From the IMG/VR virus record IMGVR_UViG_3300030060_000715, positions 3,655-27,969 of that record: a DNA stretch of 24,315 bases, one strand, 5' to 3'. Below, piece by piece: positions 3 through 23,589 of this stretch. The DNA is from a virus. The notes under the pieces are model-generated. The model saw nothing but the letters and a program-made list of their open reading frames with translations. It ran no database searches and was not told where the DNA came from. The position numbers were made by a program, and so were the translations under genes. Position 1 is the stretch's first letter. Each line of letters starts with the position of its first letter.

Positions 3-2288
3 GGTTCAACTATTACTCCTTTAACTTTTGATATGTCTGATGCTGGTAAAGCTACATTTAGTGGTAATGTAATTGTATCTGGAGATCTTACAGTATCCGG
101 TGATGATATTACTATGGGTACAAACACTGCAGGTAATTTATTAGTTGCGGATGGTACAAACTTTAATTCAATTGCTGCAGGTAGTTTATCTGAAATATCT
201 ACAGTAGCATCAGACGATGTATTTATAGCAGTAGACACTTCAGGTGGTGGACTTAAAAAAATTACAAGATCAACTATTGTAGCAGGATTAGCTACATCAG
301 GTGCAATATCAAATTTAGTAGAAGATACATCACCTCAGTTAGGCGGTGATCTTGATACTAACTCTGCAAATATTTTAATTGACGATGCACACTTTATTGC
401 AGATGAAAACGGTAACGAACAAATTATATTTCAAACAACAAGTTCAGCAGTTAATCAATTTGATATAACAAACGCTGCAACAAGTGGTGCACCAAAACTG
501 TCAGCAACTGGTGGTGATTCTAATATTGATTTAGAAATTGAAGCAAAAGGAACAGGCCATGTAACTGTTAGAGGTAATACAAATGCAGGTGCTATCCAAT
601 TCAATTGTGAGTCTAACTCCCACGGCCAGATATTAAAATCTCAACCACACTCAGCAGCTGTTACAAACGTTATGTTATTACCAGATGGCGCTGACTCAAC
701 TTTAGTGTCTCTTGTTGCAACACAAACTTTAACAAATAAAACTTTAACAAGTCCAGTTATTAATTCACCTACAGGTGATTTTATAAAAATAGGAGGCACA
801 AGTTTTGCAAACAGTATAATAGTTGGTCATGCAAGTACTGGAACTTTAAATGATGCTAATAGAAATGTTGCTGTTGGGATTGAATCTTTAGATGCAGTTA
901 CATCAGGAGACGATAATACAGTTGTAGGTTATGGTGCAGGAACTAGTCTAACTACTGGTTCCACTAATACGGCTATTGGTAATATTTCAATGAAATATGG
1001 TACATCAGGTGGGAAAAACTCATCATTAGGTTATCAGGCTTTATTAAATGCTAATGGTGATGGTAATATTGGTTTAGGTTATCAATCTGGAAATAATATC
1101 ACATCAGGCTCTGGAAATGTCGTAATTGGAAATGCAGATGTTTCAAGTGCAACAGGAGACGATCAACTTTCAATATCTGATGGAGAAGATGGATCAGTTG
1201 TTTGGATAACAGGAGATAGTTCTGGTAATTTAGTTTTCCCTGCTGATGTTACATTAGGAGATGATTTACATTTAGATTCAGACGCAGCAGTTTTAAAATT
1301 TGGAGATGATGGTGAAATAACAATTACTCATGATGCTGATGTTGGATTAAAATTAAAACATACAGCAACCGCTGATGATAAACCAATTGTATTAACATTA
1401 CAAACTGGTGAAACAGACATGGCAGCAAATGATGTCATGGGTGCTATTAGATTCCAAGCTCCTGATGAAGGAACTGGAACAGATGCTATTTTAGTTGCTG
1501 CTGCAATTCAAGCAGTATCAGAAGGTGACTTTAGTTCATCTAGTAATGCTACAAAATTAGAATTTCATACAGGTGCTTCAGAAGCTGCATCTTCAAAAAT
1601 GACATTATCTTCTGCTGGATTATTAACAGTTACAGATGATATTGTATTTAAAGATGGTGGTACTATAGGTGTAACTTCAGCTACAGATGCTATGACAGTT
1701 TCTTCTGCTGGTATTGTAACATTTAAAGACGATATTTTAATTAAAGACGGAGGTACAATAGGTGTAGCTTCTGACGCAGATTCAATAACAATAGCATCAA
1801 ATGGTGCTGTAACATTTTCACAAACACCGGTATTTCCAGATGGAAGTTTAGCATTAGCAGATTTAGATATTGATGGTGGAACAGACATTGGTGCTGATTT
1901 AGTAGATGCTGATTTATTTATAGTAGATGATGGAGCAGGCGGAACTAACAGAAAAGTAGCAGCGTCTAGAATTAAAACTTATGTTGGTGGTGGTACATCA
2001 TGGCAAGCAGTTAAAACAGGAAACTTTACAGCTACAGCTGGTCAAGGTGTATTCTGTAATACAACAAGTGCAGCATTTACTTTAACATTACCTGCAGGAA
2101 GCATTGGTGATGAAGTTTCATTTATTGATTATGCAAGAACATTTGATACTAACAATTTAACAATTGCTGCTAATGGTTCAGAAAAAATTCATGGTTCTAC
2201 AGACGATTTAACAATTGCAACAGAGGGTGCAGCTAACACTTTAGTATTTACAGACTCTACTCAAGGTTGGTTATTGAAGAGTAAATAA
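3..2288 (+). CDS. Tail fibre / receptor-binding protein, 5' end missing
   Basis: The reading frame is open to the left edge, so the gene begins before the window; the first in-frame ATG (33) is probably internal. At least 761 residues are visible. They carry repetitive, Gly/Ser/Thr/Asp-rich beta sequence typical of marine phage tail fibres, including phrases such as EDTSPQLGGDLDTNS and TQTLTNKTLTSPVINSP. Nucleotides about 860-1150 encode repeats like NTAIGN and NSSLGYQAL, spaced by short turns, which resemble the left-handed beta-roll of YadA/Hep_Hag head domains. A 31-residue unit is then repeated in tandem (1635-1820). The C-terminus (about 2000-2285) looks like a compact beta domain ending in GWLLKSK. 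Expected role: trimeric host-binding fibre on the virion. It ends in TAATG, overlapping the next gene by one base. The family call rests on composition and motifs; which domain binds the receptor is unknown. Confidence 0.8.
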   Translation, partial: GSTITPLTFDMSDAGKATFSGNVIVSGDLTVSGDDITMGTNTAGNLLVADGTNFNSIAAGSLSEISTVASDDVFIAVDTSGGGLKKITRSTIVAGLATSGAISNLVEDTSPQLGGDLDTNSANILIDDAHFIADENGNEQIIFQTTSSAVNQFDITNAATSGAPKLSATGGDSNIDLEIEAKGTGHVTVRGNTNAGAIQFNCESNSHGQILKSQPHSAAVTNVMLLPDGADSTLVSLVATQTLTNKTLTSPVINSPTGDFIKIGGTSFANSIIVGHASTGTLNDANRNVAVGIESLDAVTSGDDNTVVGYGAGTSLTTGSTNTAIGNISMKYGTSGGKNSSLGYQALLNANGDGNIGLGYQSGNNITSGSGNVVIGNADVSSATGDDQLSISDGEDGSVVWITGDSSGNLVFPADVTLGDDLHLDSDAAVLKFGDDGEITITHDADVGLKLKHTATADDKPIVLTLQTGETDMAANDVMGAIRFQAPDEGTGTDAILVAAAIQAVSEGDFSSSSNATKLEFHTGASEAASSKMTLSSAGLLTVTDDIVFKDGGTIGVTSATDAMTVSSAGIVTFKDDILIKDGGTIGVASDADSITIASNGAVTFSQTPVFPDGSLALADLDIDGGTDIGADLVDADLFIVDDGAGGTNRKVAASRIKTYVGGGTSWQAVKTGNFTATAGQGVFCNTTSAAFTLTLPAGSIGDEVSFIDYARTFDTNNLTIAANGSEKIHGSTDDLTIATEGAANTLVFTDSTQGWLLKSK
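1635..1820 (+). repeat. Tandem 31-residue repeat inside the tail fibre
   Basis: Two adjacent 93-base units (1635-1727 and 1728-1820) encode DDIVFKDGGTIGVTSATDAM... and DDILIKDGGTIGVASDADSI..., each 31 residues with the same frame and a shared DGGTIGV core. Diverged copies of a beta repeat in the fibre shaft. Confidence 0.8.
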
Positions 2289-3292
2289 TGGCTAATTATA
2301 AAGGTATACATGGAGGCACTGTCCAAAACTTTGCAGGAGATCCTGGTAATGCTATTAATGGTCAAGTATGGTATGACAAAGCCGCAGCAGCATTTCAATA
2401 TGCAAAAGTTACTACAGCAGCAAGTTGGTCTACTGGAGGAAATTTAAATACTGCAAGAGGATATATTACAGGTTTTGGAAATCAAACAGCTACATTAGCG
2501 TCTGGAGGATATACAACCACTTCACTTGTAGTTAATGAATCATATAATGGATCTAGTTGGACTGAAGTTAATGATTTAAACACTTCTGCACAAGGTCGTG
2601 CAGGAGGTGGTTCATCAACATCTGCTGTAATTTGCGGTGGAAGACTTGGACCTCCAGGTTATACTGGTAATTCAGAAGAGTGGAATGGAACTTCTTGGTC
2701 AGAAGGAAATGATTTAAATGGAGCAAGAAATACTCACGCGGGCACGGGTGTTAGCAGTGATGCAGCTATAGTCACACAAGGATCAAATCCAGGATCATAT
2801 CCTCCAAGAGGACAAACAGGAGCAACAGAAGTTTACGATGGTTCTAGTTGGACAGAGGTAAATGATTTAAATACAATAAGAAGTAGTGGATCAACATCAG
2901 GTACAAGTACAGCTGCTTTAACAATTTCAGGTATACACCCCGGTCTTTCTCCGGTAACTAGAGCAGAGACTGAATCTTGGAATGGTACATCATGGACGGA
3001 AGTTAATGATATGAACAGTGGTAGATATAGCACTGCAGCTTTTGGAACAACAACAGCGACAATTGCAGGTGGAGGAAGCCCACCTGATACAGCAACAGAA
3101 ACAGAATCTTGGAATGGTACAAGTTGGACTGAAGTTAATGATTTAAATGTTGGTAGATATCGAGTAGGATATGGACCCACTGGAACATCTACTTCAGGAA
3201 TATGTATAGGTGGTAGAACCGATGCTTATGTGGCAAACGTAGAACATTGGTCAGGCGCTGGTACAACAGCTTTTACAGTTTCAACAACTTAA
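2288..3292 (+). CDS. Kelch-repeat tail protein A (six repeats)
   Basis: A 334-aa protein starting at the ATG of a TAATG overlap. Residues 1-30 form an N-terminal domain (YKGIHG...DPGNAINGQVWYD) shared with the two later paralogues, presumably the attachment part. The rest is six repeats of about 45-50 residues. Each has a hydrophobic strand ending in GG, a variable loop, then E-S/E-W/Y-NGTSW-E-VNDLN. A closing half-repeat, EHWSG, comes before a beta C-terminus (TTAFTVSTT). Hydrophobic-GG-aromatic-W spacing is the kelch signature, so a six-bladed beta-propeller is predicted, with the final half-repeat closing the ring against the first (SWSTGGNLN). Likely role: distal tail protein for receptor or glycan binding. 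No signal peptide or membrane segment is seen. The fold is inference; the repeats are directly visible. Confidence 0.75.
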   Translation: MANYKGIHGGTVQNFAGDPGNAINGQVWYDKAAAAFQYAKVTTAASWSTGGNLNTARGYITGFGNQTATLASGGYTTTSLVVNESYNGSSWTEVNDLNTSAQGRAGGGSSTSAVICGGRLGPPGYTGNSEEWNGTSWSEGNDLNGARNTHAGTGVSSDAAIVTQGSNPGSYPPRGQTGATEVYDGSSWTEVNDLNTIRSSGSTSGTSTAALTISGIHPGLSPVTRAETESWNGTSWTEVNDMNSGRYSTAAFGTTTATIAGGGSPPDTATETESWNGTSWTEVNDLNVGRYRVGYGPTGTSTSGICIGGRTDAYVANVEHWSGAGTTAFTVSTT

Positions 3293-3305: not shown

Positions 3306-3623
3306 ATGGCAAAAACATATCAATACTGCGTAGCAGAAAACTGGGGAAAAGGATTTATTGATCACGATGAATCTCATAGAATAACTTTTAAAAGTTATCC
3401 TGGTGATGTTTGGCAAATACCCGCATATAGTAAACATGGTAATCTTTGGATTGCTAAAGTTGCAGGTGCTGTTAAAACTAAAGATCAAGCTCAATCTATC
3501 GTTACTGATAAAGTAAATGGATATAAAACAGCTTGGGATAATGATAATGTTGATGGCGAATCATCTGATGAAAAAATTGAAAGATTAGGTGCAAGGCCAA
3601 CTGATATTACATTGGAGGAATAA
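3306..3623 (+). CDS. Conserved small phage protein of unknown function (105 aa)
   Basis: I cannot assign a function. The protein is soluble and mildly acidic towards the C-terminus, with many aromatic residues near the N-terminus (QYCVAENWGKGF, GDVWQIPAYSKHGNLWIAKV). This is followed by an alpha-helical stretch (TKDQAQSIVTDKVNGYKTAWDNDN) and a short tail ending ARPTDITLEE. It has no signal peptide or membrane segment. It has the best ribosome-binding site in the window and sits between two kelch-repeat paralogues. That context suggests a product needed in quantity together with the receptor-binding proteins, for example a small virion component or assembly factor, but this is inference from position only. 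Confidence 0.7.
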   Translation: MAKTYQYCVAENWGKGFIDHDESHRITFKSYPGDVWQIPAYSKHGNLWIAKVAGAVKTKDQAQSIVTDKVNGYKTAWDNDNVDGESSDEKIERLGARPTDITLEE

Positions 3624-3630
3624 AATTTAA

Positions 3631-5451
3631 ATGTCTGATTACAAAACCATTCATGGGACTACAATTAAAAACTATTCTACTGATCCCGATAATCCAATTG
3701 AAGGACAAGTGTGGTTTGATGAAACTGCCTATGCTTTGCAGTATCAAATACCTAATGTAACTGCAGCTGGAACCTGGAGAACTGGTGGAAACTTAAATCA
3801 AGCACGAAGATATCTTGGAGGAGCTGGAACACAAACAGCTGGCTTAGCTATTGGAGGTTATCAACCAGGTCAACCTAATTCAGGTAATTTAGCTCAAACA
3901 GAAGAATATAATGGTATTTCTTGGTCGGAGTCTGGTGATTTATCAACTGGTAGATATAATGCAAGTGGTATTGGAACACAAACAGCTGCTTTAGCGGCTG
4001 GAGGTCATCCACCTTATTATAATAATACTGAAGAATACAATGGAAGTAGCTGGACTGCAGGAGGAGATTTAAACACTGGAAGAATGGGCCACGCAGGTAA
4101 TTTTGGAAGTCAAACAGCAGGAATAATGGCTGGAGGTTTTGTACCTCCAGGTGAAACTGGAACAGATATAGTAGAATCTTATAATGGATCTGCTTGGACA
4201 GAAGTTAATGATTTAAATGCAGCTAGAGGATATGCTGGAGGATCTAATCAATCTCCATCAACAGATGGTGTAATTTTTGGAGGAGGTACAGCACCAATGA
4301 ATGGTAATCTAAAAAATGAAACAGAAACTTGGAATGGAACTTCATGGACAGAAGTTGCTAATTTAAATTCAGGTAGATGGTCTCTTGGAGGAGGTGGAAC
4401 TAGTTCGACATCTGCTGTAGGTTTTGGTGGAGCTCCTTATTCTGGAAAAACAGAACAATGGAATGGGACTGCATGGTCAGAACAAAATGATTTAGCGGCA
4501 GGAAGAAATTATTTATCAGGATGTGGAACAACAAGTGCAGCTTTAGCTTTTGCAGGTGAACCTGGTCCTGGAGCAAGTCCTACAACATCAACAGAAGAAT
4601 GGACTACTGACGTACCAATTGGTGCTTGGGCTACTGGCACTGCTATGAACACAGGAAGAAGAACTTTAGGAGGAGATGGAACTTATCTATCTGCTTTAGC
4701 TTTTGGTGGAGAAGTAGCACCACCAGCGCCTTCTCATAAAGATGAAACAGAGTCATGGAATGGATCAAGTTGGACAGAATTAAATAATTTAAATACTGCT
4801 AGAAAATTAATGGCTAGTGCAGGTGGCCCTGCATCCGCTACAGCTGCATTATGTGTTGGAGGAGAAGCTCCTATTACAGCTAGTAATGAATCTTGGAATG
4901 GATCAGCGTGGACTGAAGTAGGAGATTTAAATAGTGCTAGAAGTCAATTTTCAGGTGCAGGAACAACAAGTGCAGCAATAGCATTTGGTGGAGAAGCCCC
5001 TGGTGGTGTTACAGCAATTAATGAATCTTGGAATGGATCGGCATGGACTGAAGTAGGAGATTTAAACACAGCAAGACAAGCTCATGCAGGTGCAGGAATT
5101 GTGTCTACTGCTGTATTAGCTTTTGCAGGAGCTCCATCCGTAGCAAAAACAGAATCTTGGAATGGATCAGCTTGGTCTGAATTAAATGATATTAATACAT
5201 CTAGAAGTTTTTTTTCTGGAGCAGGAGTACCAACTGGAGCTTTAGCTATGGGACAACCAGCTATAACAGAAGATTGGAATGGAACAAGTTGGGTAGAAGT
5301 TGCAGATTTAAACACAGGAAGAGATGGAATGGCTGGCGCTGGAGCAACGAGCACCAACGCTATAATTTTTGGCGGTGCTCAACCTGGACAAACAACAGTT
5401 GAAGACTGGAGCGGTACAAGCGTTGTAAATAAAACTTTAAATACGAGTTAA
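3631..5451 (+). CDS. Kelch-repeat tail protein B (double propeller, twelve repeats)
   Basis: A 606-aa protein, nearly twice the length of its neighbours A and C. The N-terminus (YKTIHGTTIKNYSTDPDNPIEGQVWFD) matches the shared anchor domain. A first set of six repeats follows, beginning TWRTGGNLN and including EEYNGISW, EEYNGSSW, ESYNGSAW, ETWNGTSW and EQWNGTAW. It ends in the half-repeat EEWTT near residue 325. A second set starts at once with AWATGTAMN and again has five further repeats (ESWNGSSW, ESWNGSAW twice, ESWNGSAWSE, EDWNGTSW). It ends in the closing half-repeat EDWSG. The simplest reading is a fused duplication of one six-bladed propeller. GGAGG at 3614-3618 is a possible ribosome site, though 12 bases from the ATG is long. 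Likely role: virion receptor-binding protein. Confidence 0.75.
   Translation: MSDYKTIHGTTIKNYSTDPDNPIEGQVWFDETAYALQYQIPNVTAAGTWRTGGNLNQARRYLGGAGTQTAGLAIGGYQPGQPNSGNLAQTEEYNGISWSESGDLSTGRYNASGIGTQTAALAAGGHPPYYNNTEEYNGSSWTAGGDLNTGRMGHAGNFGSQTAGIMAGGFVPPGETGTDIVESYNGSAWTEVNDLNAARGYAGGSNQSPSTDGVIFGGGTAPMNGNLKNETETWNGTSWTEVANLNSGRWSLGGGGTSSTSAVGFGGAPYSGKTEQWNGTAWSEQNDLAAGRNYLSGCGTTSAALAFAGEPGPGASPTTSTEEWTTDVPIGAWATGTAMNTGRRTLGGDGTYLSALAFGGEVAPPAPSHKDETESWNGSSWTELNNLNTARKLMASAGGPASATAALCVGGEAPITASNESWNGSAWTEVGDLNSARSQFSGAGTTSAAIAFGGEAPGGVTAINESWNGSAWTEVGDLNTARQAHAGAGIVSTAVLAFAGAPSVAKTESWNGSAWSELNDINTSRSFFSGAGVPTGALAMGQPAITEDWNGTSWVEVADLNTGRDGMAGAGATSTNAIIFGGAQPGQTTVEDWSGTSVVNKTLNTS
4885..5066 (+). 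repeat. Near-identical kelch repeat DNA in protein B
   Basis: Bases 4885-4931 and 5020-5066 are two 47-base segments that differ at only two positions and lie 135 bases (45 codons) apart in the same frame. This is a recently copied or homogenised pair within the repeat array, and a likely substrate for recombination. Confidence 0.75.
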
Positions 5452-5452
5452 T

Positions 5453-6442
5453 ATGGCAGAATACAAAGACATACACGGAACTAATATTGAAACTGTAACA
5501 TCAGATCCATCAAATCCTATTGTTGGACAAATGTGGTATAATTCAACTTCTAGAACATTAAAAGGTTTTATACTTTCAGCTGCTTCTTGGGCAAGCGGTG
5601 GAAACTTTAATGCTGATGGTCACTTTCAAGCTGGAGGAGCTGGAATACAAACAGCTGGTTTAATTACTGGTGGAGGAAGCACGTGGCCTGGAGTAGGATT
5701 AATTGCTGATACAGAAACTTATAACGGAAGTTCTTGGACTGAAGTAAATAATTTAAATTCATCTAAAAGAAATATGAGTGGTTTAGGTTTAACAACTGCA
5801 GCTTTAATATGTGGGGGAGGACCACCTGCTAAAGTAGATACAGAAACATGGAACGGTACTAGTTGGACTGAAGTAAATAATTTAAATACTGCTAAAGATA
5901 ATAATCCTGGAGTAACTGGAATTTTAACAGCGGGAATAGCTTTTGCTGGTGAAGGATCACCAGGTGCAAAAATTACAAATGCAGAAACATTTAATGGAAC
6001 TAGTTGGACTGAAACTGGAGATTTAAATACTGGAAGACACTCTTTAGGAGCGGCAGGCACATACACTGCTTGTTTAGGTTTTGGAGGCGCTGCAGATTCA
6101 CCAGCGGACGGTGGTGAAGTAGAATCTTGGAATGGAACTAGTTGGACTGAAATTGCTGATTTAAATACTAATGGTAGAGAAGGTGTAGCTGGTTTTGGAT
6201 CACAAACATCTGCTTTAGCTTCTGGTGGAAGCACGGTTAATGTTGAATTATGGAATGGTTCTTCGTGGTCAGAACAAAATAATTTACCTGCAGTTTTATC
6301 TAATATGGGTCCAGCACAAAACAGTCCGGGATCACTTGGTATGGTGGCAGGTGGTTTTTATGGTCCTGGTATTAATGTTGTTCAAACTACTTATGAATGG
6401 ACTGGTGAAGTACAGTCAACAGTAACTTTTGACGTATCTTAA
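5453..6442 (+). CDS. Kelch-repeat tail protein C (six repeats)
   Basis: A 329-aa paralogue of A and B that begins two bases after B ends. The N-terminus (YKDIHGTNIETVTSDPSNPIVGQMWYN) is the shared anchor domain. Six repeats follow: SWASGGNFN, then ETYNGSSW, ETWNGTSW, ETFNGTSW, ESWNGTSW and ELWNGSSW, each preceded by a hydrophobic-GG strand. The closing half-repeat YEWTG leads into a beta C-terminus, TVTFDVS. Like A, it fits one six-bladed kelch-type propeller. It is the last gene of the receptor-binding module; a promoter-like sequence and a new gene set follow. Predicted to be a tail-tip or adhesin-like virion protein. Its ligand cannot be read from the sequence. Confidence 0.75.
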   Translation: MAEYKDIHGTNIETVTSDPSNPIVGQMWYNSTSRTLKGFILSAASWASGGNFNADGHFQAGGAGIQTAGLITGGGSTWPGVGLIADTETYNGSSWTEVNNLNSSKRNMSGLGLTTAALICGGGPPAKVDTETWNGTSWTEVNNLNTAKDNNPGVTGILTAGIAFAGEGSPGAKITNAETFNGTSWTETGDLNTGRHSLGAAGTYTACLGFGGAADSPADGGEVESWNGTSWTEIADLNTNGREGVAGFGSQTSALASGGSTVNVELWNGSSWSEQNNLPAVLSNMGPAQNSPGSLGMVAGGFYGPGINVVQTTYEWTGEVQSTVTFDVS

Positions 6443-6474: not shown

Positions 6475-6493
6475 AACAAAAATGGAGAAAGAC

Positions 6494-7171
6494 ATGAAAA
6501 AAGATATTAAAGATCTTATACAAAAAGAAGAGAATAACTTAAACAATTTGTTAGAGCCAACAGATCTATCCGATTTTAAAAGTATGGTAGACGAGCTTCG
6601 AGATACATGGACCAAGAAACAAATGTTTAGAACAGAAACTGAAGCAAGGTTTTCTGTATTACAAGACAATCGTTATCCAACTAAAGCTGCAAAGTATTGG
6701 CAGTGTGTTAGAGAACAATCAAGTTATTTAGACAATCTTATGGCTTTGTCTTTTGATTATAGAAGAAATGATGCAAAAATTAAATGGTTAGAAAAAAAAT
6801 TAGATACAGAAAAAGATGAATATAAGTTAAGTAAATATGAAATAGATTTAGATGAGTGTCGTTTTGGTAAAGCTTCCATGGAAAAAGTTGCAAGACATAG
6901 AATGCGTGAAATTAAAATGTGGTCTAAATTAAAAAAAGAATTTAATGATGGATCATTTAATGATCAAGATGTTAATCAACACCAATTAGAATCATATGGT
7001 TTAATGTACGCTGGAAAATCAAGAGCAATAAATGATCATACTTCAGAAGCAGAAAGATTTAATATTTTAGGACAACTTCAATCTTTACAAAGAATTAAAA
7101 AATCAGGTGAACTAGAAAATAAAACTGAAAAAAAAGAAGAACTTCCAAAATATGGAAAGCCAAACTCTTAA
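6494..7171 (+). CDS. Conserved helical phage protein (225 aa)
   Basis: A charged, mostly alpha-helical protein with coiled-coil character. It contains FRTETEARFSVL, the stretch YPTKAAKYWQCVREQ, and LSFDYRRNDAKIKWLEKKLDTE, followed by EIDLDECRFGKASME, REIKMWSKLKKEF and a C-terminal Lys/Glu tail. I recognise this as a type of conserved hypothetical protein common in marine podovirus-like genomes, but know no function. An ATG at 6482 is in frame, but GGAG at 6484-6487 lies six bases before the ATG at 6494, so I choose the latter. The 3' end overlaps the next gene by 20 bases. No membrane segment is seen. Position between tail genes and the oxygenases suggests a late or structural-associated role. 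Confidence 0.7.
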   Translation: MKKDIKDLIQKEENNLNNLLEPTDLSDFKSMVDELRDTWTKKQMFRTETEARFSVLQDNRYPTKAAKYWQCVREQSSYLDNLMALSFDYRRNDAKIKWLEKKLDTEKDEYKLSKYEIDLDECRFGKASMEKVARHRMREIKMWSKLKKEFNDGSFNDQDVNQHQLESYGLMYAGKSRAINDHTSEAERFNILGQLQSLQRIKKSGELENKTEKKEELPKYGKPNS

Positions 7172-7817
7172 ATTTGATTTTGTATTCTTAGGTCAATGTG
7201 TTTTAAAATACCAAGTTCCTTTGGATATTTTTACTACAATAAATTCATTATATGAAAGTAATATTAATAATCTACATTCAGCTAATAAACAATTAGTTGG
7301 CAAAATAGAAAATGAACATTCTTTATTTTATAGTGGAAAAGATGAATCTAAAATTAAAAGACATAATGTGTTACCTTTAAATATTACAGATTATTTTATG
7401 TCCGTTTTTAAACACTATTTAACATTTAATAAAATTAAAGATTATGATTTACATTTAAATTCTATTTGGGTTAATGAAATGAAAAAGCACGAGTATAATC
7501 CTACACATGTTCATAGAGGTATGTTATTTACAGGTTTATCTAGTGTAATGATTTTAAAATTACCCTCAACATATGGTAAAGAATATTCAGCGTCTAATAT
7601 ACCACAGAATGGTAGACTACAAATATTAGGAGCTGCGAATGGTCAGTTTGCAAAAATAGATTATCAACCACCAATGAACCTTAGAGATTTTTATGTTTTT
7701 CCATATGATATGAGGCATTGTGTTTATCCTTTTAATGGAACCGATGAAATTAGAAGAACACTTGCTGCAAATTGTGATGTTCAATTTGATCCAATACAAA
7801 ATAGAGGTGCCGCATGA
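7152..7817 (+). CDS. 2OG-Fe(II) oxygenase-like protein 1 (HxH type)
   Basis: A 221-aa protein with the layout of a double-stranded beta-helix 2-oxoglutarate/Fe(II) oxygenase. The core is SIWVNEMKKHEYNPTHVHRG (about residues 104-123), with H119-x-H121 as candidate metal ligands. A beta core follows (SSVMILKLP), then FYVFPYDMRHCVYPF with distal H189, and R201/R202 in IRRTLAANCDV as candidate 2-oxoglutarate anchor. The same arrangement is seen in the oxygenase at 8398, so the two are probably related (PF13759-like). It is more diverged than that protein, so loss of activity is possible. Substrate unknown. It overlaps the preceding gene by 20 bases and the next by four, so co-translation is likely. 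Confidence 0.6.
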   Translation: MESQTLKFDFVFLGQCVLKYQVPLDIFTTINSLYESNINNLHSANKQLVGKIENEHSLFYSGKDESKIKRHNVLPLNITDYFMSVFKHYLTFNKIKDYDLHLNSIWVNEMKKHEYNPTHVHRGMLFTGLSSVMILKLPSTYGKEYSASNIPQNGRLQILGAANGQFAKIDYQPPMNLRDFYVFPYDMRHCVYPFNGTDEIRRTLAANCDVQFDPIQNRGAA

Positions 7818-8398
7818 TAACAGAACCACGTTGGAAATCTTATATTGTTGAAACAACACAACCAATTTTTACACCAAAACAATGCCAAATGATTATTGAT
7901 GCAGGAAGATCTCAACCTAAAATAAAAGCAAAGGTAGGAGAAGATAAAAGTGTTAAAGGTGGGGTCTTAAATACTAAAACAAGAACTTCACATATTAGTT
8001 GGATACCATTTAAAAATATGCCAGATATGTATCGAGATATAGAAAGAATAATGAAACAAACTAATGGTAATCATTTTGGTTTTGAAGGAATGCAAATAAC
8101 AGAAAATGCACAGTATACAGAATATCCAGAAGGTGGGTTTTATGATTGGCATGTTGATAATGATGTTAATATGTCTAATGAACCACCTGTTAGAAAAATA
8201 TCTATGACTTGTTTATTATCTCCTGAAACAGAATATGTGGGAGGAGATTTAGAATTAATGACTGAAAGTAAAATTGCAAAAATTAAACAAGGACACGCTA
8301 TATTTTTTGCCTCTTTTATTAGACATAGAGTTACACCGGTTATACAAGGTAATAGAAAATCTTTAGTGATGTGGTTTGGAGGACCTCCTTTTAAGTAA
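7814..8398 (+). CDS. 2OG-Fe(II) oxygenase 2, PKHD/prolyl-4-hydroxylase type
   Basis: A 194-aa protein with the complete catalytic set of the prolyl-4-hydroxylase-like 2-oxoglutarate dioxygenases. Iron ligands are H113 and D115 in FYDWHVDND, and H171 in FIRHRVTPV. R181 in GNRKSLVMWFGGPP would bind the co-substrate carboxylate. GGDLELM and GHAIFFASF match the conserved strands around these residues. The overall sequence resembles PKHD-type (PiuC-like) hydroxylases. Predicted reaction: hydroxylation of a protein or small-molecule substrate with O2 and 2-oxoglutarate, giving succinate and CO2. Start overlaps the previous stop (ATGA at 7814), with GAGGTG just upstream; the end overlaps the next start by one base. 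The substrate cannot be read from the sequence. Confidence 0.85.
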   Translation: MITEPRWKSYIVETTQPIFTPKQCQMIIDAGRSQPKIKAKVGEDKSVKGGVLNTKTRTSHISWIPFKNMPDMYRDIERIMKQTNGNHFGFEGMQITENAQYTEYPEGGFYDWHVDNDVNMSNEPPVRKISMTCLLSPETEYVGGDLELMTESKIAKIKQGHAIFFASFIRHRVTPVIQGNRKSLVMWFGGPPFK

Positions 8399-8988
8399 TG
8401 TTTAGAGAACTGTATTTTCCAACACCTATTTATATTGCAGATATAAAACACCCAACTCTTAATCAAGAGTTAGAAAGAGACATTGTAGCTTGGGCAAATA
8501 AAGACAAAGGTATTAATAGAACTAATATTAATGGTTGGCATTCAGAAACTAATATGAGTGAACTACCTGAGTATCATAAATTAGTTAAATTGTTATATGA
8601 ATCACAAAGAACTATATATGAACAAGAACATTTAGATAGTGAACCTTATTTAGGAAACATGTGGGCAAACATTAATCCACCTGGCGGAATGAATAGAGCA
8701 CACATACATCCAAATTCTTTATGGTCTGGCGTTTATTATATTAAAGCTGAACCTAACTCTGGTCATTTAAAAATAGATGATCCAAGAGCTGCAGCATCAA
8801 TGTGTAGGCCAAGACAAAAACCAGGACAGTCTCCTGTTAGATTATGGAGAGAAACACATTTTGAACCTAAAGCAGGTAGATTAATTATGTTTCCTTCTTG
8901 GTTAACTCATGCTGTTGATCCAAATGAATCTAATGATATAAGAATATCAGTATCATTTAATTTTATGCAAAAGTGTATGGTAGTATAA
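8398..8988 (+). CDS. 2OG-Fe(II) oxygenase 3 (PF13759-like)
   Basis: A 196-aa protein with the recognisable signature of the 'putative 2OG-Fe(II) oxygenase' family (PF13759): MWANINPPGGMNRAHIHPNS followed by LWSGVYYIKAE, then GRLIMFPSWLTHAVDPN and IRISVSFNF. Candidate metal ligands are H102 and H104 (HIH) and H171; R182 would anchor 2-oxoglutarate. The first residues, FRELYFPTPIYIADI, are also typical of the family. It is full length. It starts at a TAATG overlap with oxygenase 2 and ends at a TAATG overlap with oxygenase 4, so it lies in the middle of a translationally coupled set. Members are frequent in marine phages and function is generally unproven. Substrate unknown. Confidence 0.85.
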   Translation: MFRELYFPTPIYIADIKHPTLNQELERDIVAWANKDKGINRTNINGWHSETNMSELPEYHKLVKLLYESQRTIYEQEHLDSEPYLGNMWANINPPGGMNRAHIHPNSLWSGVYYIKAEPNSGHLKIDDPRAAASMCRPRQKPGQSPVRLWRETHFEPKAGRLIMFPSWLTHAVDPNESNDIRISVSFNFMQKCMVV

Positions 8989-9632
8989 TGTTTCAAACTA
9001 AAAAATATCAAGTTATTAAAAAAGCTGTGTCTTACGAATTAGCTAATTTTATATTTAATTATTTTTTACTTAAACGTGATGCTGTTGATTTTATGTATAA
9101 AAATAACATTCATTCGCAATCTAGTTTGTTAGGAACTTGGTCTGATAAACAAGTACCTAATACTTATTCTAGTTATGGTGATTTTGTAATGGAAACGTTG
9201 ATGATGAAAGTTTTACCAACTATGCAAAAAGAAACAGGATTAAAATTAGTTCCAACATACTCTTATGCTAGAGTATATAAAAAAGGAGATATATTAAAAA
9301 GACACAAAGATAGACCTAGCTGTGAAATATCTACTACAGTGCATTTAGGTGGAGAGCCTTGGTCTATATTTATAGATGGCACAGGTCAAAATAATGTAAT
9401 AGATGAGTACAAAAATATACATAAACCTAATGCTCCAAAAGGTACAGAAGTCTTGCTTGATGTTGGCGATATGCTAGTATATAGTGGATGCGATTTAGAA
9501 CATTGGCGAGAGCCATTTGAAGGAAACATATGTGGTCAAGTATTTTTACATTACAATCATGTAAATGGCCCATTTGCTGATAAAAATATATTTGATGGAA
9601 GACCGATGTTAGGTATTCCTAAATTAAAATAA
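8988..9632 (+). CDS. 2OG-Fe(II) oxygenase 4 (HxD type)
   Basis: A 214-aa protein. GDILKRHKDRPSCEIS contains H106-x-D108, the usual first two iron ligands. LVYSGCDLEHWREPF gives distal H172, in the position expected for the third. The residue where Arg or Lys normally binds 2-oxoglutarate falls in CGQVFLHYN, where I see Gln184 instead, so co-substrate binding may differ. TTVHLGGEPWSIFID provides the core strand. An upstream ATG (8973) would overlap the previous gene by 16 bases. I prefer 8988 because it forms the TAATG overlap used repeatedly in this genome. It is the last of four adjacent oxygenase-like genes, and ends nine bases before the large structural gene. Substrate unknown. Confidence 0.75.
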   Translation: MFQTKKYQVIKKAVSYELANFIFNYFLLKRDAVDFMYKNNIHSQSSLLGTWSDKQVPNTYSSYGDFVMETLMMKVLPTMQKETGLKLVPTYSYARVYKKGDILKRHKDRPSCEISTTVHLGGEPWSIFIDGTGQNNVIDEYKNIHKPNAPKGTEVLLDVGDMLVYSGCDLEHWREPFEGNICGQVFLHYNHVNGPFADKNIFDGRPMLGIPKLK

Positions 9633-9641
9633 TGAAGCTAT

Positions 9642-11798
9642 ATGTTACAAAAAGTAAAATTTGCACCTGGATTTAATAAACAAGTTACTGGAACTGGCGG
9701 TGAAGGTCAATGGATTGAAGGTGATAATGTTAGATTTAGATATGGAACGCCTGAAAAAATAGGTGGTTGGGCACAACTAGGTTCAGTAGATTTAACAGGA
9801 CGTAACACAGCAATTCATCATTTTGTTAATGCTAGTGGTATTAAGTTTGCAGCTTTAGGAACAAATAGAATTTTATATGCATACTCTGGTGGTATTTTTT
9901 ATGACATTCACCCAATTAAATCTACTACAACTTTAACATCAGCTTTTTCTACAACAAACGGATCCGCAACTGTAACAATAACTTTTGCATCAGCACATAA
10001 TATAAACAAAGGTGATATTATTTTATTAGACAATTTTACATCTATAACAAATTCTGATTTTACTTCTTCTAATTTTGACGACAATAAATTTCAAGTAACA
10101 ACCATACCAACAAATACTACACTAACTGTTACCATGGCATCTAATGAAACTGGATCGGGAGCAAGCACATCTGGTGGTATTAGAGTTAAACATTATTATC
10201 CTGTTGGACCAGCAGTTGAAGTTGCAACAACAGGTTGGGGCCTTGGATCATGGGGTGGTGTTCAACAAGGACAATTTACATCTACCTTATCATCAGAAAT
10301 TAACTCTAGTGTAACATCATTAACTATGGCTAGTTCAACTTCGTTTGCATCATCAGGTACTGTATTAATTGGAAATGAGTTAATAACTTATACTGGAAAC
10401 AGTGGTGGAACTTTATCTGGATTAACAAGAGGTGCAAAAGGAACAACAGCTGCAACGCATTCGTCAGGTGCAACTGTAACAGATGCCTCTAATTATTTTG
10501 CATGGAATGGTGCAACATCTGGAGATATTGTAACAGCACCAGGACTATGGTCATTAGATAATTTTGGTAATAAACTTATTGCAACAATTAATGGTGGAGA
10601 AACATTTGAATGGGATTCTGATCCAACAGGTGCAACAGAAACAAGAGCAACTATACTTGCTAACGCACCAACATCATCATCTTTTAGTTTAGTATCTACA
10701 CCGGATAGACACTTAATATTTTTTGGAACAGAAACAACTATTGGTACATCTTCATCAAGAGATGAAATGTTTATACGGTTCTCGGACCAAGAATCTATTA
10801 ACGAAACAACATCATATGCACCTAGTGCAACTAACACTGCCGGCACACAAAGATTAGCAGATGGATCAAAAATTATAGGAGCTATTAGAGGTAGAGATGC
10901 TATTTATATTTGGACAGACACCGCGTTATTTATTATGCGTTTTGTTGGTGCACCTTTTACTTTTTCATTTCAACAAGTTGGTACAAACTGTGGATTGATC
11001 GGACAGAATGCAGCTGTTGAGGTTGATGGATCTGCATATTGGATGTCAGAAAATGGTTTTTTTAGATACACAGGTAAACTAGAATCACTACCATGTTTAG
11101 TTGAAGATCATGTTTACGATGATATTAATACAATTCCAAAACAACATATCAATGCAGGACTGAACAATTTGTTTGGAGAAGTTATGTGGTTTTATCCCAA
11201 CTCTGGATCAGGAACCGTAAATAGGATGGTGTGTTATAATTATTTAGATTCAACACCAGAACGACCGGTGTGGACCACAGGAACATTAGCTAGAACTTCT
11301 TGGCAAGACTCTGCTGTATTTGGTAAACCACACGCAACAGAATACGACGATGACGGCACAACAGCTACAAGTAATAAAGATCATGTTATTGGTTGTACTG
11401 ATGGCACAACAACATATTATGAACACGAAACAGGATTAGATCAAGTTAAAGAAGGTGCAACTACATCTATTACGGCAAACATACAATCAGGAGATTTTGA
11501 TATAGGTCAACAAGGACTTGCTGGTGATGGTGAGTTTATGATGAAAATTAGAAGAGTATTACCAGATTTTTTATCACAAACAGGAGATAGTGTTGTTACA
11601 TTAAATTTAAGAGACTTTCCTAATCAAACACAAGCTAGTTCATCACTTGGACCATTTACTATATCATCTAGTACAAATAAAATAGATACACGTGCACGTG
11701 CTAGATCTATATCGTTAAAAGTATCTAATAGTAGCACAAGTCAATTTTGGAAACTTGGTACATTTAGATTAGATATACAACCAGACGGAAGAAGATAA
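9642..11798 (+). CDS. Tail nozzle / DNA-stabilisation-like structural protein
   Basis: A 718-aa beta-rich protein. The N-terminus, GFNKQVTGTGGEGQWIEGDN followed by VRFRYGTPEKIGGW, is a phrase I associate with large phage tail or head-closure proteins. Two apparent beta inserts follow: about residues 92-190 (ending GGIRVKHYYPVGP), and about 217-288 (LIGNELITYTG...LSGLTRGAKGTTAATHSSGA). Propeller-like strands come next (LDNFGNKLIATINGGETFEW, GRDAIYIWTDTALFIMRF, GSAYWMSENGFFRYTG). The C-terminus (RARARSISLKVSN...FWKLGTFRLDIQPDGRR) matches the ending of P22 gp10-like packaged-DNA stabilisation and tail-tube B-type proteins. Probable role: the nozzle that closes the head and continues the tail channel. 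The exact family is uncertain, but a virion structural role is likely. It ends in a TAATG overlap. Confidence 0.65.
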   Translation: MLQKVKFAPGFNKQVTGTGGEGQWIEGDNVRFRYGTPEKIGGWAQLGSVDLTGRNTAIHHFVNASGIKFAALGTNRILYAYSGGIFYDIHPIKSTTTLTSAFSTTNGSATVTITFASAHNINKGDIILLDNFTSITNSDFTSSNFDDNKFQVTTIPTNTTLTVTMASNETGSGASTSGGIRVKHYYPVGPAVEVATTGWGLGSWGGVQQGQFTSTLSSEINSSVTSLTMASSTSFASSGTVLIGNELITYTGNSGGTLSGLTRGAKGTTAATHSSGATVTDASNYFAWNGATSGDIVTAPGLWSLDNFGNKLIATINGGETFEWDSDPTGATETRATILANAPTSSSFSLVSTPDRHLIFFGTETTIGTSSSRDEMFIRFSDQESINETTSYAPSATNTAGTQRLADGSKIIGAIRGRDAIYIWTDTALFIMRFVGAPFTFSFQQVGTNCGLIGQNAAVEVDGSAYWMSENGFFRYTGKLESLPCLVEDHVYDDINTIPKQHINAGLNNLFGEVMWFYPNSGSGTVNRMVCYNYLDSTPERPVWTTGTLARTSWQDSAVFGKPHATEYDDDGTTATSNKDHVIGCTDGTTTYYEHETGLDQVKEGATTSITANIQSGDFDIGQQGLAGDGEFMMKIRRVLPDFLSQTGDSVVTLNLRDFPNQTQASSSLGPFTISSSTNKIDTRARARSISLKVSNSSTSQFWKLGTFRLDIQPDGRR

Positions 11799-21595: not shown

Positions 21596-22081
21596 ATGCA
21601 ACTTTCAAAACATTTTAAACTTGAAGAGATGACAAAGTCGATGACAGCGACGCGTAAAGGTATTGACAACTCACCAGGAGCAGGTGATATTAAAAATTTA
21701 GAGAATGTATGCTATGAAATACTAGAGCCGGTTCGTGCACACTTTGACAAACCAATTACAGTGACATCAGGGTATCGTTCAGAAGCGCTTTGCGAGGCTA
21801 TAGGTTCAAAAAAAACCAGCCAACATGCTAAGGGCCAAGCGGTAGATTTTGAAATAGCAGGCGTGCCTAATATTCAAACTGCATATTGGATTCAAAATAA
21901 TTGTGACTTCGATCAATTGATCCTCGAGTTTTACAAAAAAGACGACCCCGCGGGAGGCTGGGTCCACGTGTCTTATAATGAAGCGGGAGCCAACAGAAAA
22001 CAAGTTCTTACTTACGACGGGAAAAGCTACGAAAACGGACTACCGGAAATGAAATGGTCTGGTGGAAAAGTCGTAGGATAA
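21596..22081 (+). CDS. Endolysin, M15 family peptidase
   Basis: A 161-aa protein with the peptidase M15 (M15_3-like) core. It has ITVTSGYRSEALCEAIGSKK followed by TSQHAKGQAVDFEI, then GGWVHVSYN. H77, D84 and H124 are the expected zinc ligands. FDQLILEF supplies an acidic residue (E111) in the usual catalytic region. Predicted reaction: cleavage of peptidoglycan peptide cross-links, as L-Ala-D-Glu or D-Ala-D-Ala-type endopeptidase, at the end of infection. The length is that of a single-domain phage endolysin. No signal peptide is seen, so a holin would be needed; one lies directly upstream. The 3' 180 bases are about 46% G+C, clearly above the surroundings, which may mark separate origin. No obvious Shine-Dalgarno is seen (A/T-rich leader), perhaps limiting expression. 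Confidence 0.88.
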   Translation: MQLSKHFKLEEMTKSMTATRKGIDNSPGAGDIKNLENVCYEILEPVRAHFDKPITVTSGYRSEALCEAIGSKKTSQHAKGQAVDFEIAGVPNIQTAYWIQNNCDFDQLILEFYKKDDPAGGWVHVSYNEAGANRKQVLTYDGKSYENGLPEMKWSGGKVVG

Positions 22082-22112: not shown

Positions 22113-23543
22113 CTAAATCCATGATTTAAGTTGTTCACCCAATACTTCAGAAGCTATATTTATTTTTTTTCTTAATGCTTTGACTATCTTTTCATCAACA
22201 GTATTTTCAGCATTTATATCTACGTAAGTTACAGGTTTTTTCTGTCCAACACGGTGTGCTCTATCTTCTGATTGTAAACGTTTTTCTAGGTCATATCCGT
22301 TAGAATAGTAAATTACGGTGTTTGCAGCTGTCAAAGTTATCCCATAGCCGCCCGTAGAAGGCGTTCCAATAAAGAATCGACACTTAGGGTCCTCTTGAAA
22401 ACGCTTAATATTGTCTTGCCTTTCTTCTTTTGGAGTTAATCCATAGTAGTCAACAAAAGATCCTGGACCATATTCATTATTAATAGCTTCTATAATTTTA
22501 TGAATGTCATATTGATAGTGAGCCCATATAATAGCTTTACCCTCTAAATCTTCTAACACACTCATTAATTCATCAATTCTATTATTTTTAATAGATTGTA
22601 TAGCACCATTATCATCTGTAAAATGACCACAAGTTATTTGTTGTAATCTCATTAATTGTGTCAAAGAATTTTTTGTACTAGATACTTTTCCTTGCAATAT
22701 AGCTAAAGCTTGTTCTTTCATTTGTTCGTACAATTTAAATTGATCTGGTGTCAGTTGTATTTGACGTTTGATAAATATTTTATCTGGTAAATCTAGACAA
22801 TCTTCTTTTAACACACGATAAGAAAAATTTTTAAGAGTGTCAGACAACTCACTTAAATTTTTAAATTTATCTACAACTTGTATTGATCTGCCATGTGCGT
22901 GCATAGTTTTCATTTCTGCATACCTGTTTCTAAATGCATAATAAGAAGAAAAATCTAAAAGATAAGAATCTAAAAACTCACATTGACTATATAAATCTAA
23001 TGGGTTTTTAGTAACAGGAGAACCTGTCATAATACGTCTGTATTTAGCTTGTTTTGCTAAATCTACAATGTTTTTTGTGCGTTTAGCACTAGGATTTTTT
23101 ATTGTAGTAGACTCATCAATAGCCATTAATGTATTATGTGATCGTAAAAATTTTTCTGCAAATTTTTTACCTTTTTCTGTGCTAAAAGCTTCAACGTTCA
23201 TAATTAAAATATGTAAAGCCGTTTCTACCTCAAATAAAGTTTCTAGTTTTTGTTGTTGTTTTTTGTTTATATTTGGCTGCCACAATACAGTCACATTTTC
23301 TATGTGACTTGGTAAATGCGTAGGTAATTCATTACTATACCAAGTGCCAACAACACCTTTTGGTGCTACAATTAAAGCGCCATCTAGTTTACCTTTATCG
23401 TAAAGCATAGACATGTTATCTATTAATACTTTTGTTTTACCTGTACCCATTTCCATAAAATATGCATAGGTTTCTTTGTTCCATGACTTTTCTAAAGCAG
23501 TCATTTGATGCTTGTATGGTTTTGTTTTAAATTTATAGTTCAT
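22113..23543 (-). CDS. SNF2-family DEAD/DEAH-box helicase/translocase
   Basis: A 476-aa superfamily 2 ATPase of SNF2 type (from the chosen start). Motifs in order: PYKHQ (9-13, Q-like), Walker A EMGTGKTKV (GTGKT at 33-37), Ia LIVAPKGVVGTW, Walker B AIDESTTIKN (DES rather than DEAH, 143-145), III MTGSPVTKNPLDLY (TGS at 173-175), V STGGYGITLTAANTVIYY (396-413) and VI RAHRVGQ (428-434). This is a complete two-RecA-domain enzyme without extra domains, as in many phage SNF2 helicases. It probably moves on duplex DNA in replication, recombination or transcription; the exact role is unknown. A start at 23576 adds 11 residues. I prefer 23543 because the purine-rich AGAAAGAAGA lies just upstream and the predicted leftward promoter would start RNA near 23560. 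It is the only minus-strand gene in the window. Confidence 0.85.
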   Translation of the reverse strand: MNYKFKTKPYKHQMTALEKSWNKETYAYFMEMGTGKTKVLIDNMSMLYDKGKLDGALIVAPKGVVGTWYSNELPTHLPSHIENVTVLWQPNINKKQQQKLETLFEVETALHILIMNVEAFSTEKGKKFAEKFLRSHNTLMAIDESTTIKNPSAKRTKNIVDLAKQAKYRRIMTGSPVTKNPLDLYSQCEFLDSYLLDFSSYYAFRNRYAEMKTMHAHGRSIQVVDKFKNLSELSDTLKNFSYRVLKEDCLDLPDKIFIKRQIQLTPDQFKLYEQMKEQALAILQGKVSSTKNSLTQLMRLQQITCGHFTDDNGAIQSIKNNRIDELMSVLEDLEGKAIIWAHYQYDIHKIIEAINNEYGPGSFVDYYGLTPKEERQDNIKRFQEDPKCRFFIGTPSTGGYGITLTAANTVIYYSNGYDLEKRLQSEDRAHRVGQKKPVTYVDINAENTVDEKIVKALRKKINIASEVLGEQLKSWI

Positions 23544-23561
23544 AGTTTTTCTTCTTTCTAG

Positions 23562-23589
23562 TTGACAAGATAACATTTATAACTATATT
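23562..23589 (+). promoter_or_regulatory. Rightward sigma70-like promoter, leaderless transcript predicted
   Basis: TTGACA (23562-23567, perfect -35), 16-base spacer and TATATT (23584-23589). A start seven or eight bases after the -10 falls at 23596-23597, i.e. on the ATG of the 119-aa gene, which has no ribosome-binding site. Confidence 0.65.

Follow-up and report, generated by a model that had tools for sequence, protein, structure and literature searches.

Four contiguous 2OG-Fe(II) oxygenase-like genes linked to fibre type in a relative of HTVC023P-type pelagiphages

In HTVC023P-type pelagiphages, 2-oxoglutarate (2OG) oxygenase genes are co-located with a gene named 'ferrochelatase', which, according to the respective study, always occurs together with a neighbouring 2OG oxygenase (Wittmers et al. 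2022, PMC9599517). In seasonal viruses, both 2OG oxygenases and 'ferrochelatases' have been reported as enriched (PMC11561400). Overlapping arrays of small 2OG oxygenase genes, which include a homologue of the gene D described below, are present in the cyanophages and pelagimyophages S-CREM1, S-RIM44, HTVC008M and Mosig, where they are often accompanied by a tryptophan halogenase and located near neck or fibre genes. For the collagen lysyl hydroxylase L230 of mimivirus, a viral 2OG hydroxylase, an action on virion-fibre-type peptides has been proposed or shown. The same applies to the prolyl 4-hydroxylase of Chlorella virus PBCV-1 (cited in PMC9301287).

Here we analysed a window of 24,315 nucleotides of a phage that is a relative of the HTVC023P-type pelagiphages. 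A preliminary description of this window had pointed to four consecutive oxygenase-like genes, coupled by overlaps and placed between fibre genes and a tail nozzle gene. Indeed, we could confirm four adjacent plus-strand genes (A to D) at this place by the ORF coordinates as well as by Pfam and fold assignments, with three kelch-repeat fibre genes and a gene termed 'up' on the upstream side and the nozzle gene as the conserved right boundary of an exchangeable module (Table 1). The genes are tightly coupled: A starts 20 nt within the end of 'up', A and B overlap by 4 nt (ATGA), and at the B/C and C/D junctions the start codon lies in a TAATG, overlapping the preceding stop codon by one base. 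Because of this one-base overlap, D most likely starts at the ATG at position 8988 and not at the GTG at position 8973. Fibre 3 was modelled as a kelch propeller with six blades. The kelch-repeat peptide sequence is TESWNGTSWTEVNDLNTAR.

Table 1 Position, strand and supporting evidence of the oxygenase-like genes A to D and of the neighbouring genes in the window.
Feature	Position	Strand	Evidence and remarks
Kelch-repeat fibre protein 1 (~6 repeats, ...TESWNGTSWTEVNDLNTGR...)	2288..3292	+	repeat read directly; homology to fibre 3
Small gene amid fibre genes	3306..3623	+	kept in most related loci; no PHROG match
Kelch-repeat fibre protein 2 (~12 repeats, probably two propellers)	3631..5451	+	weak Kelch_3 match
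Kelch beta-propeller fibre protein 3, proposed substrate	5453..6442	+	AlphaFold2 pLDDT 89; Foldseek kelch domains E 3e-16
'up' gene, 229 aa	6482..7171	+	phrog_1409 (unknown); accompanies kelch fibres, oxygenases present or not
A: 2OG-FeII_Oxy_5 family, HxH...H...R	7152..7817	+	PF13759 2.6e-7; phrog_81; motif invariant, 9 sequences
B: prolyl-4-hydroxylase-like 2OG oxygenase (predicted), HxD...H	7814..8398	+	PF13640 1e-14; profile to P4H 5c5t E 4e-18
C: 2OG-FeII_Oxy_5 family, HxH...H...R	8398..8988	+	PF13759 2e-29; relatives 3bvc, 2rg4 (uncharacterised); HxH...H 23/23
D: 2OG oxygenase fold, HxD...H	8988..9632	+	phrog_2954, labelled 'ferrochelatase'
Nozzle / P22 gp10-like stabilisation protein	9642..11798	+	phrog_3287 1.8e-97; homologues annotated stabilisation protein

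All four proteins carry the His-x-His/Asp...His pattern noticed beforehand, which could be mapped to H119-x-H121...H189 in A, H113-x-D115...H171 in B, H102-x-H104...H171 in C and H106-x-D108...H172 in D, with little or no variation at these positions in alignments of homologues down to 15-38 % identity. While B and D contain the HxD...H triad, A and C have a third histidine in place of the usual carboxylate, an arrangement which is invariant and shared with the PDB relatives of C. B is predicted to be prolyl-4-hydroxylase-like by its profile match to 5c5t, which spans most of its length, by its HxD...H triad and by a basic, putatively 2OG-binding residue that follows the last histidine in the alignment; procollagen lysyl hydroxylase was also among its PDB matches in the profile search. 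Superfamily membership follows from the domain for A and C (PF13759) and for B (PF13640), and from the Foldseek result for D. Pairwise alignments of A to D score at background level, so that we reject an origin of the quartet by recent tandem duplication. The four genes, which are not paralogues of each other, share the 2OG-Fe(II) oxygenase fold and fall into three sequence families, namely PF13759 (A, C), PF13640 (B) and the so-called ferrochelatase family (D).

D belongs to a family that was published as 'ferrochelatase', i.e. as a haem-making enzyme. D had no Pfam match at all, ferrochelatase included, and no ferrochelatase was matched when its profile was compared with the PDB. The structural model of D (pLDDT 90) retrieved 2OG oxygenases including prolyl hydroxylases as best PDB matches in Foldseek (E 1.4e-8, prob 1.00), and HxD...H is invariant in the homologue alignment. 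From this we conclude that the name 'ferrochelatase' is unsupported for D, and we reject this assignment. The best structural match is the bacterial EF-Tu prolyl-4-hydroxylase (4iw3, 4j25), which has the double-stranded beta-helix in common with D, but shares only about 10 % identity and is a single cellular enzyme outside any oxygenase operon. In a bacterial genome, the neighbours of a D homologue are another 2OG oxygenase, a sulfotransferase, an asparagine synthase, an HPr-kinase-like gene and an ABC transporter, a neighbourhood resembling a peptide-tailoring cluster.

The order up-A-B-C-D-nozzle was intact in all 72 spanning loci, which had been fetched by A or D, and purifying selection acts on each gene of the quartet (pN/pS 0.22-0.32), from which we conclude that its conservation is more than chance. 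Together with the conserved catalytic residues, this is the opposite of single, scattered homologues with unconserved catalytic residues, the pattern that would have spoken against a system as initially suggested. Optional insertions comprise a fifth oxygenase and a sulfotransferase (PF13469 6e-14) and, in relatives, a tryptophan halogenase (PF04820 1e-101). Occasionally, unrelated ORFs, among them ParB-like ones, separate C from D. A DNA search of named phages for close relatives returned D only, at about 70 %, with zero matches for fibre 3 and 'up'.

The presence of the cassette depends on the fibre type rather than on the virus backbone. On HTVC023P-like backbones, oxygenases were found in 14/14 loci with kelch-propeller, glycine-rich or 'TIAS'-repeat fibres (K/G/P) and in 0/21 loci with jelly-roll (J) or LamG-like (L) fibres, counting nozzle-ascertained loci, which share ancestry and are hence not independent, and excluding L429 and L434, two loci that had been fetched by D. 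On a second backbone of the HTVC033P type, the respective numbers, for loci likewise related by descent, were 8/9 with G fibres and 0/19 with J/L fibres. D was absent throughout nine long J/L-fibre records (20-47 kb), in which positive controls were detected, and A was absent in four of these nine. When loci were ascertained by the fibre instead, 28 of the 30 with enough downstream sequence harboured the cassette. Nozzle genes that are 80-99 % identical occur both with and without the cassette, and we therefore reject the idea that it is a fixed part of the phage lineage. Since the module is also present beside T4-like neck genes (L391), it crosses virus families.

Between fibre, 'up', A and B, the distances are correlated (rho 0.62-0.89), whereas the module genes do not track the nozzle (0.04-0.22); for D this correlation is only 0.13, although the two genes are 10-20 bp apart. 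Judging from these distances, fibre, A and B co-evolve (rho 0.64-0.89), and the cassette follows the fibre and not the nozzle. Co-transfer of neighbours can produce linkage without function. The sharp break of the linkage at the nozzle, however, disfavours proximity alone. The cassette is not always found beside a matching fibre: kelch fibres without an adjacent cassette occur in an HTVC033P-type group (0/6) and in one myophage group (L393-L403). In four records, including at least one of the HTVC033P type, the fragment contains up-A-B-C-D but no kelch fibre, so that the linkage is not absolute. In the six HTVC033P-type fragments with kelch fibres the cassette was not found elsewhere, and none of them seems to reach the position it occupies in L148. 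The kelch repeat consensus is the same in fibres with and without a nearby cassette, so that a repeat change where the cassette is absent was dropped as an uninformative comparison.

In our estimate the chances are about even that the quartet represents the enzyme half of a transferable fibre-plus-modification module for host recognition, which hydroxylates its fibre and sometimes sulfates or halogenates it. The oxygenases are inherited jointly with a particular receptor-binding fibre, and both are exchanged while the tail backbone stays conserved. Late in infection, A to D would hydroxylate side chains on new fibre repeats with the help of Fe(II), O2 and 2-oxoglutarate, each enzyme presumably serving its own residue type or repeat position, and in some genomes a sulfotransferase or flavin halogenase may further decorate the same fibre protein. 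Such a modification would assist the folding of the receptor-binding surface or make it more stable or more diverse, which would account for the joint inheritance of enzyme set and fibre type. While location, linkage and fold are direct results of the analysis, substrate and activity are what we infer, the least certain parts being the identity of the modified residue and the 2OG dependence of A and C with their HxH...H site. The earlier suggestion of virion-protein modification thus gains support from the linkage to fibre type, while catalytic activity, substrate and an action of the four in sequence are putative. More tentatively, a mobile receptor-binding module might occur across several families of marine phages, its kelch-propeller or glycine-rich fibres being finished by a dedicated set of three to six 2OG oxygenases, with optional sulfation or halogenation thereafter.

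A linkage of this kind could also arise if a recombination hotspot between fibre and nozzle gathered cargo that accompanies the fibres in transfer but does not act on them. Exchange plainly occurs at this site, unrelated ORFs do enter between C and D, and HTVC033P-type kelch fibres can lack a neighbouring cassette, but the fixed four-gene order, the purifying selection and the specific way in which enzyme sets and fibre types pair on both backbones make such hitch-hiking unlikely. We regard it as likewise unlikely that the quartet consists of auxiliary metabolic genes reprogramming the host, e.g. its 2OG levels and nitrogen signalling or its iron and haem metabolism, which is the published reading for cyanophages (PMC3037559) and pelagiphages (PMC9599517, PMC11561400). 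The haem argument is removed by the 2OG oxygenase fold of D, and neither the dependence on fibre type, with absence beside J/L fibres on the same backbone, nor four non-redundant families in one order are predicted by this reading.

The enzymes could instead modify a host surface molecule bound by the co-inherited fibre, thereby blocking superinfection or the re-adsorption of progeny to debris. This would predict the same fibre-type linkage on both backbones; glycans are frequent targets of sulfotransferases, and pelagimyophage host-recognition islands with glycosyltransferases have been interpreted likewise (PMC7029224). We nevertheless consider it improbable, since the genes sit among late virion genes, the proteins look small and soluble without obvious signal or membrane segments, as read from their sequence, and, among characterised proteins, B and D match protein prolyl hydroxylases most closely. 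Modification of DNA or nucleotides, as in hypermodified phage DNA, appears very improbable. In its favour, oxygenases of the TET/JBP type act on DNA bases, the profile of D weakly matches a TET-like protein (E 0.28), and HTVC023P-type phages own separate DNA hypermodification genes (PMC9599517). Structure and profile matches, however, point to protein hydroxylases, and the genes are located in the fibre region and track the fibre type.

The locus differs from its closest described counterparts. The enzymes of PBCV-1 and mimivirus are single, directed at collagen-like targets and encoded by eukaryotic viruses, whereas here four enzymes accompany kelch or glycine-rich phage fibres. The cyanophage and pelagimyophage arrays are more variable in composition and order, with up to nine genes and no fixed A-B-C-D. 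In PMC9599517, the same gene families are co-located in the same virus group, but D is read as a haem enzyme, the oxygenases are near each other rather than adjacent, and a link to fibre type was not found in the passages considered, while the quartet described here is contiguous and fibre-linked. Literature phrase searches returned nothing relevant on fibre modification by phage oxygenases, on a correction of the ferrochelatase assignment or on a sulfotransferase link. The claim of an undescribed system therefore stands in part: the co-location of oxygenases and 'ferrochelatase' appeared in 2022 (PMC9599517), and annotations of cyanophages and pelagimyophages already contain such genes in series, but we found no published description of the corrected identity of D, the fixed quartet, the sulfotransferase and halogenase partners or the fibre-type dependence.

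Few supposed metabolic genes of ocean viruses are as frequent as 2OG oxygenases and phage 'ferrochelatases', and the quartet-bearing phage is of a very common ocean phage kind. Should the fibre be what these genes serve, much of what has been written on host reprogramming by them needs to be re-read, the ferrochelatase argument falls and the genes would belong to host recognition. Phage receptor-binding proteins would then be chemically diversified beyond the genetic code, and the related clusters, with relatives of B, C and D, in the cultured phages HTVC023P, HTVC033P and HTVC008M would offer a testable case of multi-enzyme fibre modification.

The window, bases 3655-27969 of a 32,782-base virus record, carries the oxygenase-like genes A to D (together the cassette) downstream of three fibre genes, a small gene and a gene here called up, and directly upstream of a P22 gp10-like nozzle gene. 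For D, the overlapping ATG at 8988 is a more likely start than the GTG at 8973, which gives the long ORF.

Features of the locus, with positions counted within the window.
Feature	Position	Strand	Remarks
Fibre gene	2288-3292		Upstream of A
Fibre gene	3631-5451		Upstream of A
Fibre gene	5453-6442		Upstream of A
up	6482-7171		phrog_1409
A	7152-7817	+	Starts 20 nt inside the preceding gene
B	7814-8398	+	ATGA overlap with A
C	8398-8988	+	Start at TAATG
D	8988-9632	+	Start at TAATG
Nozzle/stabilisation gene	9642-11798		9 bases downstream of D; phrog_3287 (1.8e-97); homologues annotated as stabilisation proteins
M15-type endolysin	21596-22081		phrog_894; marks the end of the late operon
DNA helicase	22113-23576		phrog_62; convergent; with the endolysin marks the end of the late operon

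The preliminary description had read all four genes as 2OG-Fe(II) oxygenase-like. In Pfam, A and C matched PF13759 and B matched PF13640. B resembles prolyl-4-hydroxylase along most of its length (5c5t, E 4e-18), and A and C, which share an HxH...H...R motif with histidines invariant in 9 and 23 sequences, respectively, are putative 2OG oxygenases with a three-His site; the motif also occurs in 3bvc and 2rg4, the uncharacterised closest solved relatives of C. Mutual protein alignments of A-D did not rise above background, and the genes are therefore not recent duplicates. Proteins named 'DNA endonuclease V' (phrog_274) were found within other 2OG oxygenase arrays (L158:5313-5795, L156:8672-9184, L155:6571-7206), and protein C itself matched phrog_274 at 1.6e-6; the endonuclease name has probably been carried over in error to a 2OG oxygenase.

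D had no Pfam match and belongs to phrog_2954, annotated 'ferrochelatase', a name that appears in GenBank records and in two papers building on it (PMC9599517, PMC11561400). The AlphaFold2 model of D (20-sequence alignment, mean pLDDT 90, pTM 0.87) retrieved prolyl hydroxylases as top Foldseek matches in the PDB (4iw3, E 1.4e-8; 6t8m; 4j25), followed by HygX, SnoN, EvdO1, PHD2 and others; Fe(II)/2OG enzymes made up nearly all of the 50 matches listed, and no ferrochelatase was among them. Furthermore, all 19 sequences compared, drawn from podoviruses, pelagimyophages and cyanophages, have H106-x-D108...H172. Because of this predicted fold and the invariant HxD...H, we conclude that D is, as modelled, a fourth 2OG oxygenase, and that its ferrochelatase identity is unsupported. 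A lone D homologue (54% identity, L431:6989-7699) lies amid apparently ordinary cellular genes of a Rickettsiales metagenome-assembled genome, perhaps reflecting transfer between phage and bacterium. Five other contigs with D homologues (L428, L430, L433, L434, L435) are assigned to metagenome-assembled genomes of Maricaulis and Flavobacteriaceae, probably as contaminants; the two that were read, L428 and L434, are phage-like.

The order up-A-B-C-D-nozzle was complete in 72/72 viral loci spanning both ends, which shows order and not frequency, since these loci were fetched with A or D themselves. Purifying selection acts on each of A-D (median pN/pS 0.22-0.32, 210-276 comparisons per gene). 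Insertions keep fixed places: a sulfotransferase between up and A (PF13469, 6e-14; 19 loci), an additional 192-aa 2OG oxygenase between A and B (55 ORFs), and ParB-like or additional 2OG genes between C and D (13 ORFs), with two distinct ParB_N-like small genes at the last position in several loci (L128:4695-5015, L009:5149-5583). Clusters of relatives with other fibre types contain a tryptophan halogenase (PF04820; L186, 1e-101; L434, 1e-88), which in these podovirus-type loci lies between B-like and C-like oxygenases and adjoins glycine-rich fibres (L186:4227-5762, L434:4766-6178). Flavin halogenases likewise lie beside the 2OG arrays in S-CREM1, S-RIM44 and Sf-FP1.

The cassette is not constant in this kind of virus: nozzles about 80-99% identical to that of the window were accompanied by it, by a three-gene version that has diverged, or by neither. 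Fibres were typed by repeat patterns and phmmer as K (kelch repeats), G (glycine-rich, PF21722), P ('TIASTGDATDFGDL' repeats), J (short jelly-roll-like proteins) or L (LamG/DUF7483-like). For loci fetched with the nozzle that had 3 kb or more of upstream sequence, leaving out two D-fetched and five untypable loci, oxygenases accompanied K/G/P fibres in 14/14 cases versus 0/21 for J/L fibres (Fisher's test about 4e-10 if loci were independent, which they are not, making it a guide only). Each bait search was limited to the 80 best loci, IMG/VR records are fragmentary, and neither E-values nor counts take shared ancestry into account. On a second backbone (HTVC033P/HMO-2011 type, internal virion protein as bait), oxygenases were present with 8/9 G and 0/19 J/L fibres; 0/6 K fibres had oxygenases beside them, which is the main contrary evidence to a fibre link. 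In four other records up-A-B-C-D is not placed next to fibres; the one tested, L148, is HTVC033P-type (DNA polymerase 77% identical), and its cassette lies where the early genes end, a position that the six K-fibre fragments appear to stop short of. In whole-record searches, in which positive controls were detected, D was absent from all nine of the long J/L-fibre records examined (20-47 kb), and A from the four tested.

Pairwise protein distances were compared across 42 distinct loci in which no part was missing. Those of fibre, up, A and B were strongly correlated (Spearman 0.62-0.89), those of C moderately (0.46-0.60) and those of D more weakly (0.28-0.52), and the nozzle was almost uncorrelated with the module (0.04-0.22) although D ends 10-20 bp upstream of it. 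The cassette was present in 28/30 fibre-fetched loci with sufficient downstream sequence, and the module adjoins T4-like neck genes in L391. Related D-containing clusters lie near glycine-rich fibres in phages from other families, either cultured or complete (HTVC033P, HTVC023P, 023Pt_psg01, HTVC008M, Mosig). A glycine-rich fibre, B, C, D and a matching nozzle on a 62-kb contig (L429) from the single Pelagibacteraceae cell AG-404-L13 support SAR11 as host of the phage group, and presumably of the window's virus.

Given the break between D and the nozzle, proximity on its own cannot account for the linkage of fibre and enzymes. The strongest rival explanations are hitch-hiking of the enzymes with fibres, a metabolic role and modification of the cognate host receptor. 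A metabolic role has been proposed before: a 2022 study gave the co-located 2OG oxygenases and 'ferrochelatase' of HTVC023P-type phages a metabolic and haem reading (PMC9599517), and numerous cyanophage 2OG genes were related in 2010 to 2OG/nitrogen modulation or DNA repair (PMC3037559). Ten such genes were noted in S-CREM1 in 2023. Modification of the cognate host receptor would track fibre type just as fibre modification would. A Baltic Sea study considered collagen-like tail fibres as possibly concerned by viral prolyl hydroxylases (PMC9301287). Co-location is already known; for the corrected identity of D and the fibre-type link, we found no paper in the open-access literature.

The model of fibre 3 (5453-6442) is a six-bladed kelch propeller (pLDDT 89; best match LZTR1, E 3e-16), which makes it plausible as a receptor-binding domain whose repeats expose many equivalent positions. 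The up protein accompanies kelch fibres even in myophages without oxygenases nearby, which suggests a partner of the fibre such as a chaperone or connector. In Mucilaginibacter (L436:4984-14279), a D homologue has as neighbours a second 2OG oxygenase, a sulfotransferase, an asparagine synthase, an HPr-kinase-like gene and an ABC transporter. Together these genes look like a peptide-tailoring cluster of the lasso-peptide type, which hints at fibre modification. The data establish the fold, the conserved sites, the gene coupling, the dependence on fibre type and joint inheritance; beyond that, we consider it most likely that active A-D enzymes would hydroxylate the repeats of the fibre, followed in some phages by sulfation or halogenation, and that this may affect binding.
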